Source: Candidatus Thorarchaeota archaeon (GTDB taxonomy: Archaea > Asgardarchaeota > Thorarchaeia > Thorarchaeales > Thorarchaeaceae). From it: a DNA stretch of 5,466 bases. The translations under genes and the position numbers were made by a program. The stretch covers positions 1-5,466 of the forward strand of contig JAEOUL010000241.1 in the NCBI GenBank assembly GCA_016839345.1, read 5' to 3'. Shown piece by piece: positions 1-5,402 of this stretch (position 1 is its first letter; each line of letters starts with the position of its first letter). The notes beneath the pieces were generated by a model. It saw only the letters and a list, made by a program, of their open reading frames with translations, did no database searches and had not been told where the DNA came from.

Positions 1-450
1 GATGTAATCAACCTTGGTTTGAAACATGGTGGCAGGGCATACTCAATCGGAATGTGGAATGCCGCCCATTCAAGAAGTTTCTATGGAAAAGAGGATTACG
101 CGAAGATGTCGAACCTTAAACAAAAGACTGACAAGAAGGGATATCTAAACTCTCACAAGGTCTTTCCTGGACCATTGGTTCTTAGTGTTCGAATGAACCT
201 GCTAGTCATGTTCATTGCAGGACTTGTCGCACCAGTTGTAATTTGGGTGGCAAGATTACTGGTACCTTCCATTTTCCAAGCATATGTCCCATGGATTATT
301 GTCAATGACCTTCCAAGTTTCTTGATATGGTTCATTGTGGGTATACTCGTTGGCTTTGTCGTAACTGAGTTTGCGAATTTAATTCCAATCACAGTTGTAC
401 TTTCAATTGGTACACCCTTCTTAAGATTAGGAAGGAAAATCTTCCATTGA
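1..450 (+). CDS. FAD-linked oxidase (GlcD-like), C-terminal part fused to a membrane anchor; 5' end outside window
   Basis: The frame is open from the first base, so the gene starts upstream of the window; a TTG at 19 is an internal codon rather than a convincing start. The 149 visible residues have two parts. Residues 1-56 look like the end of a FAD-oxidase C-terminal domain: HGGRAYSIG, then EDY, then LKQKTDKKGYLNSHKVF, which matches the family's usual D-P-K-G-x-L-N-P-x-K ending. The same stretch aligns with the C-terminus of the dehydrogenase at 1081-2559 (about 14 identities in 47 positions by eye, one gap), including the RMNL that follows. Residues about 67-90, 104-123 and 125-142 are hydrophobic and should span the membrane two or three times, which GlcD itself does not. 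Inference: a membrane-anchored flavoprotein subunit working with the downstream redox genes. The FAD-binding half is not visible, so the substrate is unknown. Confidence 0.7.
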   Translation, partial: DVINLGLKHGGRAYSIGMWNAAHSRSFYGKEDYAKMSNLKQKTDKKGYLNSHKVFPGPLVLSVRMNLLVMFIAGLVAPVVIWVARLLVPSIFQAYVPWIIVNDLPSFLIWFIVGILVGFVVTEFANLIPITVVLSIGTPFLRLGRKIFH

Positions 451-657
451 TGGAGGCGCAGTGAATCTTGGAAGTGACAGAAGCATGAACTCCATAATGG
501 ACCACATACATTCATCGAATTGTATGAATGTAAGTCTACGCTCATTTGCGAATAATCATATGAAGTTGAATTTTCACTACAGTTTTCTTTCAAAATCTAC
601 CTTATCTTTCAAGTTCACAGGCAGTGACTACTATTTCTCTCACAAGGAGGTATCTAA
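451..657. other. Intergenic region with an inverted repeat and a doubtful 66-codon ORF
   Basis: These 207 bases separate the anchored flavoprotein from the small membrane protein. They hold a 9-bp inverted repeat (507-532), and AAGGAGGT at 644-651, the ribosome binding site of the next gene, 6 nt before its ATG. I see no convincing TATA box. An open frame from GTG 461 to TGA 661 has GGAGG at 452-456 before it and overlaps the next gene by ATGA. Its product is rich in Ser, Asn, His and Phe with no recognisable domain, so I treat it as probably non-coding. Confidence 0.5.
507..532. repeat. 9-bp inverted repeat, possible operator or RNA hairpin
   Basis: TACATTCAT (507-515) and its exact reverse complement ATGAATGTA (524-532) flank the 8-base spacer CGAATTGT. 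The middle AATT is itself palindromic, so 22 of the 26 positions are symmetric. A dyad of this size fits a binding site for a dimeric winged-helix or ribbon-helix regulator. The same sequence in RNA could form a weak, AT-rich hairpin. It lies 125 bp before the start of the small membrane protein gene. The symmetry is seen; the role is inferred. Confidence 0.35.
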
Positions 658-1068
658 ATGACCACAACTATACCAACTAGTCAGTTACAGGCGTTGCAAA
701 TTGGTAATGTACATATGACTGTAATACTTGGCCTTCCTGCTCTAATACTCCTTTACATTGGTACAACGTTATACTATATTTCTAAGGAGAAATACACTTT
801 TGTTCACGGGGTATGTGCGGGTCTGTCATTATTGTTAACAACAGTCAATATTGTCGCTATACTACCTCTCACTGATACATTGCTCAGAGTGGGAGGAGCA
901 GACCTTTTTCATCTAATACATATTGGTTTGGGAGTGATAGGTTACCTGGCTGGTGTAGGTGCTTTCCTCACTGGAATCTCAGGTATTCGAACTCATATCC
1001 CTGGATTGGTAGCTGCAATTTGCTGGACAATAGTTTTCGTCATGGGATACATTCAGTACATCGCCTAG
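658..1068 (+). CDS. Small four-helix membrane protein with conserved-looking histidines; candidate b-type heme subunit
   Basis: A 136-residue hydrophobic protein starting at ATG 658, with AAGGAGGT at 644-651 as a strong ribosome binding site. Four membrane segments can be drawn at about 21-41, 49-70, 84-109 and 113-135, with a short polar N-terminus. Histidines lie at or near helix ends: H19, H50, H85, H88 and H113. H50 (helix 2) and H85/H88 (helix 3) are spaced as axial ligands might be in small four-helix cytochrome b-like families. I cannot assign a named family with confidence, so heme binding is a hypothesis. It ends 12 bp before the FAD dehydrogenase gene and probably shares its transcript. 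Inferred role: membrane electron acceptor or quinone-reducing subunit for the adjacent flavin and Fe-S proteins. Alternatives are a non-redox anchor or an unrelated DUF-type protein. Confidence 0.75.
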   Translation: MTTTIPTSQLQALQIGNVHMTVILGLPALILLYIGTTLYYISKEKYTFVHGVCAGLSLLLTTVNIVAILPLTDTLLRVGGADLFHLIHIGLGVIGYLAGVGAFLTGISGIRTHIPGLVAAICWTIVFVMGYIQYIA

Positions 1069-1080
1069 AGGTGAAGAAAG

Positions 1081-2559
1081 ATGAATTTAGTAGAACAAAT
1101 CTCCGAACTATCAGAGGTATCTTGGATCAGCGATCTAATGGCAGAACGTTTGTCTGCAAGTGGAGACACAACCGGAATCCCGTATTATCACTACCGATGG
1201 AAGAAAAATTGGCTTGCAGATTATGTAGCATGGCCAGAGTCCAGTGAGCAGGTATCATCTATTTTGAGATTTGCCTCACAACGGAAGATGCCTGTTATTC
1301 CAAGAGGCGGTGGAACTTGTTATTATGGATCAGCGAGTCCAACGAGAGGTGGAATTGTTATTGATACGAAACGGATGGATAGAATCAAAGAGGTAAACAA
1401 GCAGGAAGGATGGATTAGAGTAGAGGCTGGAGCTGTTTGGGAGATTCTGAACAACGAGTTAGCGAAACAAGGTCTTGCAATCCCAGTTGCGCCTCAGAGT
1501 GGTGTCGCATCCACACTTGCAGGTTGGTTAGCGATTGGCGGGTCAGCTGGTGTTGGAACCCCAAAATATGGTTCGATGATTGAAAATGTGTTTGAGATGG
1601 AAGTTGTAAGACCAGATGGCACGATTGATACTGTCACAGGGGAGGACATGATGCCCTTCTATGGCACTTCTGGAATATCAGGAGTTGTTACATCGATGAA
1701 GATGAAAGTAATCCCAATTCCTGAATTAACTGAAGGATTCATGTTTGCGTTTAATGAGCTTGATAAAGCAATAGATGCACTCTCCCGTCTTAGTAAGACC
1801 AAAATCCAACCGACATATCTGAGATTAACCGATCTTGAGTACGAGTGGCGTATTCAGGGTGGTCTTCCACCTGGAGTAACTGGTCTTTTCTTTGTCATGG
1901 TAACATATAGTGGAGCAGCTGATGAAGTGGTAGAGTCGATGAAGACAGCCCGTGGTATTTTTGAGATCGCTGGTGGGGAGGAGATGCCACAGGATTACTA
2001 TAGGAAGAATTGGGATGACAGGAATATTGTTGAAATGAAACTCAAACTGGAAGTTCCAACTCTATCCATGCAGAATTTTTGGATTCCAATTCAGAATATT
2101 GAACCCATAATAAGGAGAATGTACAAAATCGCAACTAAGTATCGTATAAACTCCTGTTTCTATCTTGTTTTTGGCAGCTCCTCAATGGCTCGGCTTTGTG
2201 TGTTTGCGCCATCAGACCATAGACACTGGATGCACTTCATGTCTGGAAAAGCAATGCTACATAAACTGGTTAAAATGATGTACCGACAAGGGGGTAGACT
2301 CTATACACTGGGTCTCCAGAACACAGTCTATATCAAAAAGTACCAACCAGAGGATTACCAACGTTACAAAGAGCTTCGAAAGAAATGGGATCCAAGGGAG
2401 ATGATGAACCCGGATAAGTTGACGCACTGCAATATGTCGTACACTAGGATGAATCTCATGTTTACAATGAACGGGTATTTCCGTAGGCTACAGGTGCTTC
2501 TTAGAAGAGCGGAAAAAATCCTACAGATACCAGTTGCTTACCAGGAGGGAAATTTCTAG
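1081..2559 (+). CDS. FAD-dependent dehydrogenase, GlcD-like (VAO/PCMH fold)
   Basis: A 492-residue protein, close to the length of bacterial GlcD. AGAGGTGA at 1067-1074 lies 6 nt before ATG 1081 and fixes the start. Residues about 50-210 form the FAD-binding domain: PVIPRGGGTCYYGSASP at 71-87 is the pyrophosphate-binding loop, and GWLAIGGSAGVGTPKYGS at 148-165 is the second FAD-contacting segment. Residues about 215-447 match the FAD-oxidase C-terminal domain and end in KKWDPREMMNPDKL (434-447). The usual GEHG-type active-site segment near the end is absent; GGRLYTLGLQN (404-414) occupies that area and is shared with the upstream paralog. A tail of about 45 basic, amphipathic residues follows. 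Family knowledge: these enzymes oxidise 2-hydroxy acids or similar compounds and pass electrons on. Inference: catalytic flavoprotein of a complex with the abutting Fe-S subunit. No signal peptide, so cytosolic or membrane-associated. Substrate unknown. Confidence 0.9.
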   Translation: MNLVEQISELSEVSWISDLMAERLSASGDTTGIPYYHYRWKKNWLADYVAWPESSEQVSSILRFASQRKMPVIPRGGGTCYYGSASPTRGGIVIDTKRMDRIKEVNKQEGWIRVEAGAVWEILNNELAKQGLAIPVAPQSGVASTLAGWLAIGGSAGVGTPKYGSMIENVFEMEVVRPDGTIDTVTGEDMMPFYGTSGISGVVTSMKMKVIPIPELTEGFMFAFNELDKAIDALSRLSKTKIQPTYLRLTDLEYEWRIQGGLPPGVTGLFFVMVTYSGAADEVVESMKTARGIFEIAGGEEMPQDYYRKNWDDRNIVEMKLKLEVPTLSMQNFWIPIQNIEPIIRRMYKIATKYRINSCFYLVFGSSSMARLCVFAPSDHRHWMHFMSGKAMLHKLVKMMYRQGGRLYTLGLQNTVYIKKYQPEDYQRYKELRKKWDPREMMNPDKLTHCNMSYTRMNLMFTMNGYFRRLQVLLRRAEKILQIPVAYQEGNF

Positions 2560-3777
2560 ATGTCGAGATTCTTTACACCAGAGCTTGATGTTGACCCAGA
2601 CCAGATAGTTCTATGCAGCAATTGCTCTACATGCAGATGGACCTGCACGAGTTACGAGGAGTTTCGTTCTGAGGCGATGTTCGCTGGAGGTCGGCTCAGG
2701 CTTCTCAGGTCATATGTTGAAAAGAACCTACCAGTGGATGAGGGATTCATAAGAGCAGTCTATGCATGCAGCACATGTGAGCAGTGTGTAGAGAGGTGCC
2801 CCATCAAAGTCCCATATGTAAGAATAATTGAGGATGTTCGCAAAAAACTGGTTCAGCTTGGGAAAGGACCCTATGGAAAACTGCATGTCATGGGAGACCT
2901 TGCATTCAAACACAACAATGTCTTTGGTGAAGATCCTCAGGAACGTGGCGATTGGGTCAAATCCGATACAAGAATATCCGATGATTCTGAGTGGGGATAT
3001 TTTGTAGGATGCACGGCATCGTACAAACGACCCGAAATAGCAGACGCAACCTTACGTATGCTCAACTTCTTTGACATAGAACCTCAAATACTGGGGGCAG
3101 ATGAATACTGTTGTTGCAGTCCGTTGATAAGAACAGGACAAGTAACTCGACCTATTCATGAAGAAACTGAGAATGGAGAGAAGGAGTATCTTGGTACTCT
3201 AGAAGCTGAGAAGTTCATACTCCATAATGTCGAACAGATGAAGAAGAGGGGCATTAAGCATGTGATATTCTCATGCTCAGGATGTTATCGGACAACAACT
3301 TTGGACTGGCCTAAGTTCTATAGAGAGAGACATGGAATCCTTCCATTCTCCACTCAGCATCTCACCCAGTTTCTGGCTCTTAAGTTAAAGAAGGGCGAAC
3401 TCAAGTGGAAAGGAAGTTACCCTGAAACAGTGACCTATCACGATCCGTGCCATCTAGGACGACATGTCGGTGTGTTTGAGGCACCACGAGAGATATTGAA
3501 GAGTATCCCTGGAATTAAGTTCGTTGAGATGGATCGTAACAGGCAAAATTCAGTTTGTTGCGGAGCAGGTGGAGGTTTCAAGGCAGGCTTTGGAGAGAAT
3601 GCAATAAATGTTGCAGAGAGAAGGCTAAATCAAGCTTTAGAAACTGGCGCTACGACCATTGTTTCGTCGTGTGTTTTCTGCAAATTGAACTTTCTCGATG
3701 CAGTTAAAAAACGCGGTGTGGATATCAAAGTCCTCAATATAGAAGACCTATTCATGAGCTTGATGGGGCTTGGTTGA
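2560..3777 (+). CDS. Fe-S oxidoreductase with two [4Fe-4S] motifs and two CCG domains (GlcF/HdrD-like)
   Basis: A 405-residue protein whose ATG directly follows the stop codon of the FAD dehydrogenase; its ribosome binding site AGGAGGGA (2543-2550) lies inside that gene, so translation is probably coupled. Two ferredoxin-type motifs are at C19-x2-C22-x2-C25-x3-C29 and C70-x2-C73-x2-C76-x3-C80-P. The first is followed by Thr instead of the usual Pro. Two CCG domains follow: C151, C184-C185, C239/C242, and C297, C333-C334-G335, C371/C374. In the first the motif reads CCCSP, with Cys186 where Gly is normal, and the distance from C185 to C239 is long (53 residues). CCG domains bind non-cubane or [4Fe-4S] clusters in HdrB/HdrD, and occur in GlcF and LutA-type proteins. 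Length matches GlcF. Inference: takes electrons from the flavoprotein and hands them to a membrane carrier. Reverse use as a disulfide reductase cannot be excluded. Confidence 0.92.
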   Translation: MSRFFTPELDVDPDQIVLCSNCSTCRWTCTSYEEFRSEAMFAGGRLRLLRSYVEKNLPVDEGFIRAVYACSTCEQCVERCPIKVPYVRIIEDVRKKLVQLGKGPYGKLHVMGDLAFKHNNVFGEDPQERGDWVKSDTRISDDSEWGYFVGCTASYKRPEIADATLRMLNFFDIEPQILGADEYCCCSPLIRTGQVTRPIHEETENGEKEYLGTLEAEKFILHNVEQMKKRGIKHVIFSCSGCYRTTTLDWPKFYRERHGILPFSTQHLTQFLALKLKKGELKWKGSYPETVTYHDPCHLGRHVGVFEAPREILKSIPGIKFVEMDRNRQNSVCCGAGGGFKAGFGENAINVAERRLNQALETGATTIVSSCVFCKLNFLDAVKKRGVDIKVLNIEDLFMSLMGLG

Positions 3778-3795
3778 GTAACCAAGCCATCAAGT
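3758..3795 (+). terminator. Strong hairpin enclosing the stop codon of the Fe-S gene; candidate transcript-end or processing structure
   Basis: Bases 3767-3775 (GGCTTGGTT) pair perfectly with 3780-3788 (AACCAAGCC) around the four-base loop GAGT. After a two-base bulge (3765-3766) the stem continues with 3758-3764 against 3789-3795, including one G-U pair. This gives 16 pairs in all. The stop TGA (3775-3777) lies at the top of the stem and in the loop. No T-run follows, so this is not a classical intrinsic terminator, and archaeal termination relies mostly on U-tracts. It may instead protect the 3' end, guide processing, or lower read-through into ccmA. Confidence 0.4.
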
Positions 3796-3846
3796 ATACG
3801 ATGGTTAGACCGGACTGAGTAAATCACTTGAGCAACCCATCCATCA

Positions 3847-3855
3847 TATTAAATA
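3847..3855 (+). promoter_or_regulatory. Possible TATA box for the ccmAB genes
   Basis: TATTAAATA resembles an archaeal TATA box. A start of transcription about 25 bases downstream would fall near 3877, leaving a leader of about 20 bases that contains the ribosome binding site at 3886-3891 before GTG 3900. The upstream bases do not form a clear purine-rich BRE, so this is a modest candidate supported mainly by spacing. Confidence 0.35.
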
Positions 3856-3885
3856 GGGATACCAAAAGCCTTCAGTCGACCCCAA

Positions 3886-3891
3886 AGGTGA
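3886..3891 (+). promoter_or_regulatory. Ribosome binding site that decides the ccmA start
   Basis: AGGTGA lies 8 bases before GTG 3900. The same core precedes the starts at 1081 and 4587 in this window. No comparable sequence precedes the in-frame TTG at 3828, so the shorter protein is preferred. Confidence 0.6.
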
Positions 3892-3899
3892 AACTACCA

Positions 3900-4577
3900 G
3901 TGACGATAGCCGTTGAAACAAATGAACTCACAAGACGATATGGCTATAGAGTTGCTTTGAGGAAAGTTTCACTGAAGTTTCCAATGAATGGTATCCACGG
4001 ACTTTTTGGTTCCAATGGAGCGGGGAAGACAACTCTGATGCGTGTTATATCCACTCTTCTTCGTCCACATGGAGGTACAATATTAGTCATGGGGTTCGAC
4101 CCACAAGAAGAACCTGAAGAAGTGAAGAAACGTATTGGTTTAGTCGGTGATAAGATTCTTCTCTATGATGAATTAACTGGCATCGAGAATCTGAGGTTCT
4201 ATTCGAAACTATATGGACTCCAATCTGATTTCTTTCAGTCTCAGATTGAGGATCTATCTAAACGATTTGCTGTTGATACATGGCTAGAAGAGCCTGTAAA
4301 GAACTTATCAACAGGTCTGAAAAAGAGATTCGATATTGTCCGAAGCCTAATACATGATCCTGAGTTGCTACTTCTGGATGAACCATTCAGTGGACTGGAT
4401 AAAGACACAACTGATGACTTTTGGGAATACCTGAATGAGTATAGACACAAGAGAACGACGATTGTAACCACACACAATCTCGCTTTTGGCGCAGCATTGT
4501 GTGATGAATATGTGACACTCAGAAAAGGCGTTGTGGTGAGCCAAGGTGCTATCTCTGAGTTTGATCAAACTCTCTGA
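3900..4577 (+). CDS. ccmA: ABC transporter ATPase, CcmA-like (heme exporter type)
   Basis: A complete ABC ATPase of 225 residues from GTG 3900; an in-frame TTG at 3828 would add 24 poorly structured residues but lacks a ribosome binding site. Motifs in order: Walker A GSNGAGKTT (37-45), ABC signature LSTGLKKR (136-143), Walker B LLLLDEP with catalytic Glu161 (156-162), D-loop SGLD (164-167) and H-loop His192. The position where most ABC proteins carry the Q-loop Gln reads LVGDK (81-85), without Gln; CcmA proteins often have LGHQP here. ELTGIENLRFYSKLYG (91-106) resembles the CcmA pattern LTALENLxFYxxL. The gene for the permease CcmB starts 9 bp after its stop, and the stop overlaps that gene's ribosome binding site, so the two should be made together. 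Family role: powers heme handling for cytochrome c maturation together with CcmB. CcmC, CcmE and CcmF are not seen here, so the cargo is not proven. Confidence 0.88.
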   Translation: MTIAVETNELTRRYGYRVALRKVSLKFPMNGIHGLFGSNGAGKTTLMRVISTLLRPHGGTILVMGFDPQEEPEEVKKRIGLVGDKILLYDELTGIENLRFYSKLYGLQSDFFQSQIEDLSKRFAVDTWLEEPVKNLSTGLKKRFDIVRSLIHDPELLLLDEPFSGLDKDTTDDFWEYLNEYRHKRTTIVTTHNLAFGAALCDEYVTLRKGVVVSQGAISEFDQTL

Positions 4578-4586
4578 GGTGATTGT

Positions 4587-5402
4587 ATGACATCAGGTCT
4601 TGGCGCAGCGATAGCAATTGCAAAGAAAGACATTGTCACACAATTTCGTAAGAAGTTTGAGGCATTCTCGATGTTCCTCTTCGCGCTCATAGCTGTAATC
4701 GCCTTTTCCTTTGCGGTTGTCACAGGAGGATCAGTTCCGGAGGAAGTTGGGAGTGCTCTTCTATGGGTCATCATCTTCTTTACAGGTATGTTTGGATTTG
4801 CACCAATCTTTCTCTCTGAATCAGAAACAGGCACTCTCCGAGGTCTTGCGGTTGTCACAGGAGGGTCAGTTCCAGAAGAAGTTGGGAGTGCTCTTCTATG
4901 GGTCATCATCTTCTTTACAGGTATGTTTGGATTTGCACCAATCTTTCTCTCTGAATCAGAAACAGGCACTCTCCGAGGTCTTGCGACTGCACCAATACCA
5001 GCCTGGTCAGTGTACCTTGGGAAAGTCATCTATGGTTTCTTTCTAATGGGACTTGTGGAGATATTCCTCGTTCCAATCATCTCAGTGCTTTTCGGTTTTT
5101 CAATTCTTAATGACCTTCCACTAGCAATCGCAACACTTCTTGTGGGGACTCTGGATCTTGCAGCAGTAGGATCTATGGCATCAGCTCTGACAATGCCCTC
5201 TGAATCGAAAGCAACAGTGTTTCCCCTTGTCTATTTCCCGACAGCCACTTCAGGTCTTATGCTGTTGATTGAGATTACAAAAATAATTGTCTTAGGACCA
5301 GGTTTGGTTCCTGTTATGTTAATTTTTGAAATTCTTTTAGCACATCTAGTAGCAATGTTGACACTATCAGCATCTGTATTCCACTTTGCGCTTTCACCTT
5401 GA
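4587..5402 (+). CDS. ccmB: ABC transporter permease, CcmB-like, with an internal 45-residue tandem duplication
   Basis: A 271-residue membrane protein starting at ATG 4587 after GAGGTGAT (4576-4583), which overlaps the ccmA stop. CcmB proteins are usually about 220 residues; removing one repeat copy gives 226. The N-terminal amphipathic stretch AIAKKDIVTQFRKKFEAF (10-27), the ESETGTLRGL segment before the third canonical helix, and LLVGTLDLAAVGSMASALT (184-202) all fit CcmB. Membrane segments lie at about 28-47, 55-76, 100-121, 145-170, 176-201, 209-231 and 238-267: six canonical helices plus one extra. The extra helix comes from exact protein-level duplication of residues 43-87 as 88-132. 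Family role: membrane half of the CcmAB heme exporter complex. An odd number of added helices would invert everything downstream unless the extra segment does not cross the membrane, so activity of this version is uncertain. The frame is intact throughout. Confidence 0.88.
   Translation: MTSGLGAAIAIAKKDIVTQFRKKFEAFSMFLFALIAVIAFSFAVVTGGSVPEEVGSALLWVIIFFTGMFGFAPIFLSESETGTLRGLAVVTGGSVPEEVGSALLWVIIFFTGMFGFAPIFLSESETGTLRGLATAPIPAWSVYLGKVIYGFFLMGLVEIFLVPIISVLFGFSILNDLPLAIATLLVGTLDLAAVGSMASALTMPSESKATVFPLVYFPTATSGLMLLIEITKIIVLGPGLVPVMLIFEILLAHLVAMLTLSASVFHFALSP
4711..4985 (+). repeat. 135-bp in-frame tandem duplication inside ccmB
   Basis: Unit 1 is 4711-4845 and unit 2 is 4846-4980; a third TTGCG at 4981-4985 closes the array. 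The units differ at only three positions: A4730/G4865, G4739/A4874 and G4742/A4877, all within the first 32 bases and all at third codon positions. The period is exactly 45 codons. TTGCG at 4711, 4846 and 4981 is the signature of duplication by joining at a 5-bp microhomology. A metagenome assembly error between strain variants would look similar. Confidence 0.97.

Follow-up and report, generated by a model that had tools for sequence, protein, structure and literature searches.

A CcmB-family permease gene of a Candidatus Thorarchaeota archaeon carries a 135-bp tandem duplication that keeps the reading frame and repeats membrane helix 2 together with most of the coupling helix that follows it. 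The gene lies in a 5,466-nt stretch of contig JAEOUL010000241.1, here called the window, and all coordinates are positions within this window (Table 1). The duplication is a genuine feature of the sequence. As to its origin, we lean towards a genuine in-frame tandem duplication in ccmB of one Thorarchaeota lineage, brought about by TTGCG-mediated slippage or illegitimate recombination.

Table 1. Coordinates of the genes, repeat copies, pentamers and membrane elements in the window.
Feature	Position	Strand	Details
CcmA-like ABC ATPase ORF upstream of ccmB	3828..4577	+	PF00005 92.4 bits; start uncertain
CcmB-family permease ORF with duplication	4587..5402	+	271 aa; PF03379 77.1 bits; TIGR01190 46.4 bits
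Unit copy 1	4711..4845	+	residues 43-87; repeat searches and comparison of the copies
Unit copy 2	4846..4980	+	residues 88-132; three silent sites unlike copy 1
TTGCG, left edge of copy 1	4711..4715	+	sequence
TTGCG, junction between copies	4846..4850	+	sequence
TTGCG past copy 2, repeat end	4981..4985	+	sequence, Tandem Repeats Finder
Span with three silent differences	4730..4742	+	4730, 4739, 4742; in copy 2 these are 4865, 4874, 4877
Membrane helix 2 core, first copy	4758..4814	+	residues 58-76; Kyte-Doolittle peak 2.25; pLDDT under 50
Membrane helix 2 core, second copy	4893..4949	+	residues 103-121; Kyte-Doolittle peak 2.25; predicted helix 97-126
Putative coupling-helix equivalent, first copy	4833..4853	+	residues 83-89; letters as at 128-133
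Coupling helix	4968..4988	+	residues 128-134; aligned with E. coli CcmB 78-84; predicted helix

The duplicated unit in the DNA

Tandem Repeats Finder reports a repeat of period 135 at 4711-4985, with 2.0 copies, 97% matches and 0% indels. A separate repeat search of the window places 4711-4845 head to tail with 4846-4980 at 98%, and in a self-BLAST of the window (plus strand, E<=1) the 135-bp unit is the only repeat (E 2.67e-65). The ORF stays open across both copies, and residues 43-87 recur as residues 88-132 with no amino-acid change. Both results bear out an earlier note on this DNA, which had described an in-frame 135-bp tandem duplication within a CcmB-family gene and an exact copy at the protein level. 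The pentamer TTGCG that it had placed at the junction is indeed present there, as well as at the left edge of copy 1 and past copy 2, where its third occurrence forms the end of the repeat.

The earlier note overlooked that the two copies differ in their DNA. Three of the 135 sites are unlike (4730 A and 4865 G, 4739 G and 4874 A, 4742 G and 4877 A). All three are A/G transitions at third codon positions, all are silent, and they fall within 13 bp, so that the longest exact run common to both copies is 108 bp. By chance, three differences would span at most 13 bp with a probability of 0.020 and would all be silent with a probability of 0.018-0.035, both figures coming from post hoc tests. A reverse-strand ORF of 154 aa (4565-5029) also covers the repeat; we take it to be a mirror of the coding frame.

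Family assignment and gene neighbourhood

The protein scores well above the gathering cut-off of Pfam PF03379 (CcmB, 24.9 bits) and below the cut-off of the NCBIfam ccmB equivalog TIGR01190 (156.2 bits). The low score against the equivalog is a property of the archaeal branch and not of the duplication, because all five single-copy archaeal relatives scored against TIGR01190 (P0001, P0005, P0029, P0072 and P0103) also fall below its cut-off, at 39.1-48.5 bits. These five and the window protein reach 39-49 bits where 156.2 are called for, yet ccm-type domains adjoin the gene in related genomes. A 21-sequence profile searched against the PDB (E<=0.001) matched one distinct sequence, that of E. 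coli CcmB (7f02_B and others). The 112 homologues, fragments included, are 152-248 aa long with a mode of 226 aa, and the window protein has the length of this mode plus 45 residues. The earlier statement that CcmB is of constant length is roughly right, in that 37 of the 112 homologues share the modal length.

A CcmA-like ABC ATPase ORF precedes ccmB. With the GTG at 3900 used as the start for the domain search, it reaches 102.2 bits against TIGR01189 (ccmA), below the cut-off of 131.6. The window ends 64 bases past the ccmB stop. Nine related genomes were chosen for having a ccmB relative (G001-G008 and G014), and all nine encode PF01578 (CcmC/CcmF-type) and PF03100 (CcmE) domains above cut-off on the ccmB contig, with the PF01578 domain directly after ccmB. 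Among 14 control genomes, PF01578 is matched in nine and PF03100 in five. A CcmC-like frame also lies shortly downstream of ccmB in four translated relatives (L001, L005, L007 and L010). An Asgard transporter survey, in its account of the Heme Handling Protein family, lists these exporters in Asgard proteomes except Thor (PMC7997004). In contrast to that account, the CcmC/CcmF-type domain is above cut-off in 9/9 genomes here, eight of them with Candidatus Thorarchaeota loci.

Further upstream, positions 1-450 hold the C-terminal part of an ORF that is open at the window start and is found upstream of ccmA in several relatives. It gives a weak match to PF03390 (14.8 bits, below the cut-off of 26.2). 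Between this ORF and ccmA, the stretch 658-3777 comprises three genes encoding a 136-aa membrane-like protein, a GlcD-like FAD oxidase and a 4Fe-4S/CCG protein. The first (658-1068), which adjoins the FAD oxidase gene, encodes a hydrophobic protein for which Pfam gives no match, even at E<=1. The stretch has DNA matches in L001, L002, L005 and L010. In L004, L006 and L007, the match to ORF 1-450 is followed by ccmA within about 120 bases, as if the three genes had been gained or lost as one block.

Content of the unit and membrane topology

The unit comprises the loop after helix 1, canonical helix 2 and most of the CcmA-contacting coupling helix. The topology of CcmB is described as six helices, and the coupling helix of the E. 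coli protein as residues 78-84, between hII and hIII (PMC10457321). These residues align with residues 128-134 of the window protein, where a helix is predicted, in agreement with the earlier reading of the unit as one membrane helix plus a coupling segment before helix 3. At a hydropathy threshold of 1.6, the fifth canonical helix escapes detection in both the window protein and P0001, and is detected in P0005.

A first AlphaFold run, with 21 sequences, gave a poor model (mean pLDDT 59.0). A second run with the window protein plus 106 of the 112 homologues, leaving out P0049, P0056, P0061, P0062, P0089 and P0100 as short, reached a mean pLDDT of 72.1. In this 107-sequence model, residues 45-93 have a pLDDT below 50 and the remainder is CcmB-like, copy 2 being the one used in building the canonical helices. 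The prediction thus contains all canonical CcmB helices and, at low confidence, a further helix 2 with its coupling segment. Its only PDB match at E<=0.001 is 8ce1_B, a solved CcmB whose fold it shares (E 1.4e-4, TM-score 0.79 by target length and 0.65 by query length, rmsd 5.3). The homologues are gapped across copy 1 in alignment A1, and in A2 the conserved columns lie in copy 2. These gaps partly build in the low model confidence of copy 1, and the model gives a weak indication of which copy is in use.

The earlier note suggested that a two-fold ATPase-facing segment would amount to a new permease architecture. This claim finds no support. With one extra spanning helix, the two coupling segments would face different sides of the membrane, unless a copy of helix 2 were non-spanning. 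If one more spanning helix were inserted after helix 1 and before helix 3, both coupling segments could not stay cytoplasmic while helices 3-6 kept their normal orientation. Either one copy of helix 2 would have to be non-spanning, or helices 3-6 would be inverted; the former is most likely.

We consider it very improbable that a Thorarchaeota population maintains a two-unit CcmB with seven membrane segments (an altered topology) or with a second ATPase-facing element. A working CcmB with doubled helix 2 and coupling helix, its changed architecture kept by selection, would be consistent with the intact frame, with the absence of amino-acid changes against three silent ones, as purifying selection leaves, and with the full membrane hydropathy of both helix 2 copies. 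However, the doubled unit is seen in one sequence only, and three changes are too few for demonstrating selection. The extra spanning helix would conflict with a cytoplasmic coupling helix and normally oriented helices 3-6 under the topology described for CcmB (PMC10457321), and the model has a pLDDT under 50 over residues 45-93. On these grounds a maintained, functional doubling is hardly to be expected. If it were real and kept, it would show an ABC-2-type permease tolerating one more membrane-spanning helix along with a second coupling helix, and the protein would offer a natural experiment on the way topology and ATPase coupling are set.

Absence in relatives and origin of the duplication

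The duplication is ruled out as a family trait. Of the 112 homologues, 109 match the unit (all except P0100, P0111 and P0112) and none of these carries it twice, while the window protein, used as a control, matches twice. The first protein search gave scores only for the 7998 candidates sharing most words. A junction-directed search with residues 66-130 returned 85 proteins, the longest of 248 aa, with a best coverage of 74% of this region (in a 224-aa protein). Against 227 Asgard genomes, the window protein matches 37. Thirteen of these matches are close and full-length (63-95% identity, open frames of 226-256 aa), and that in G020 covers residues 1-44 only (frame of 50 aa). The other 23 have 25-37% identity and some longer frames, up to 416 aa; because their identity is low, we take them to be other ABC-2 permeases.

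At the DNA level, a ccmA-ccmB query matches 28 of the 47 genomes of the order, several in the ATPase part only. No second unit is found in the eight closest genomes (G001-G008). Both halves of the query match the same stretch there, so each of these genomes carries one unit. The alignment with ccmB of close relatives, put forward earlier as a check, thus leaves the duplication in the window sequence alone.

Twelve related loci in the genome collection show 52-79% identity over the best segment; 11 are labelled Candidatus Thorarchaeota and one archaeon. Eight of them were aligned (all but L008, L009, L011 and L012). TTGCG occurs at the first place in one of the eight and at the second place in none, which makes the slippage substrate a peculiarity of the window sequence. 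At the three silent sites, the aligned relatives are mixed and give no pointer to which copy is ancestral. Among 200,000 random junctions drawn in the window, 0.64% have a microhomology of at least 5 bp. This low frequency, together with the rarity of TTGCG at these places in the aligned relatives, suggests that TTGCG annealed to make the join, either in the cell or in the tube.

The mechanism of the duplication, like its topology and functional effect, is what we infer from these comparisons. Replication slippage or illegitimate recombination may have acted between two TTGCG 135 bp apart, one at the end of helix 1 and the other inside the coupling helix after helix 2. For small variable segments in bacterial genomes, PMC2884548 proposes slippage involving repeats shorter than 30 bp; our literature search on helix duplications found nothing relevant. 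The three silent differences speak against a duplication freshly copied from a single molecule. The differences could stem from unequal exchange between slightly different strains, or from a long-standing duplication gathering silent changes. If aged, the repeat would be a true duplication under purifying selection.

Alternatively, two strain alleles may have been joined as a chimera, and the organism would then possess an ordinary CcmB of about 226 aa. We regard such an artefact as possible, if less probable. During library amplification, a 3' end at TTGCG could have annealed to the upstream TTGCG of the other strain, or the assembler could have joined overlapping strain contigs end to end, with three mismatches hiding the overlap. 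Joined strain alleles explain three clustered silent differences at least as well as a true duplication does, the 5-bp join is also possible in the tube, and the duplication is found in no other sequence. The odd extra helix is moreover hard to fit with the six-helix topology described for CcmB (PMC10457321). Against a chimera, a blunt join by an assembler would have no preference for a 5-bp common end, the frame is intact (1 in 3 by chance), and there is no N, nor is any ORF of the neighbouring genes broken.

The duplication is thus either a mutation of an ordinary kind or a chimera. Assembly from k-mers requires reads across a junction. The window looks otherwise sound, in that the listed neighbouring ORFs are unbroken and the stretch is collinear with L001 (over 635-4850) and L005 (over 1-4843). 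Chiefly because of these two points we favour a true duplication over a chimera, if only by a small margin. Caution is called for when an in-frame duplication bounded by a pentamer occurs in one sequence only; pending a check of reads, a private allele or a chimera is the best reading.

If the duplication is true, the doubled protein would still have every part of a canonical CcmB. Its surplus copy of helix 2 with the coupling segment most likely would not span the membrane normally, and function would be lowered or at best spared. The allele would be private to a strain and neutral at best. It is probably transient, and it could revert through recombination between the 108-bp exact repeats.

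Compared with known systems, the window protein belongs to the same sequence family as CcmB (PF03379), the permease of CcmAB, the ABC transporter of System I cytochrome c maturation, shares its fold and likewise follows an upstream ATPase gene. Unlike CcmB, it has 45 extra residues, with helix 2 and the coupling segment present twice. The head-to-tail unit with a short direct repeat at each edge is common to slippage and short-homology illegitimate recombination. Whereas the copies of a fresh slippage product are identical, those in the window differ at three clustered silent sites.
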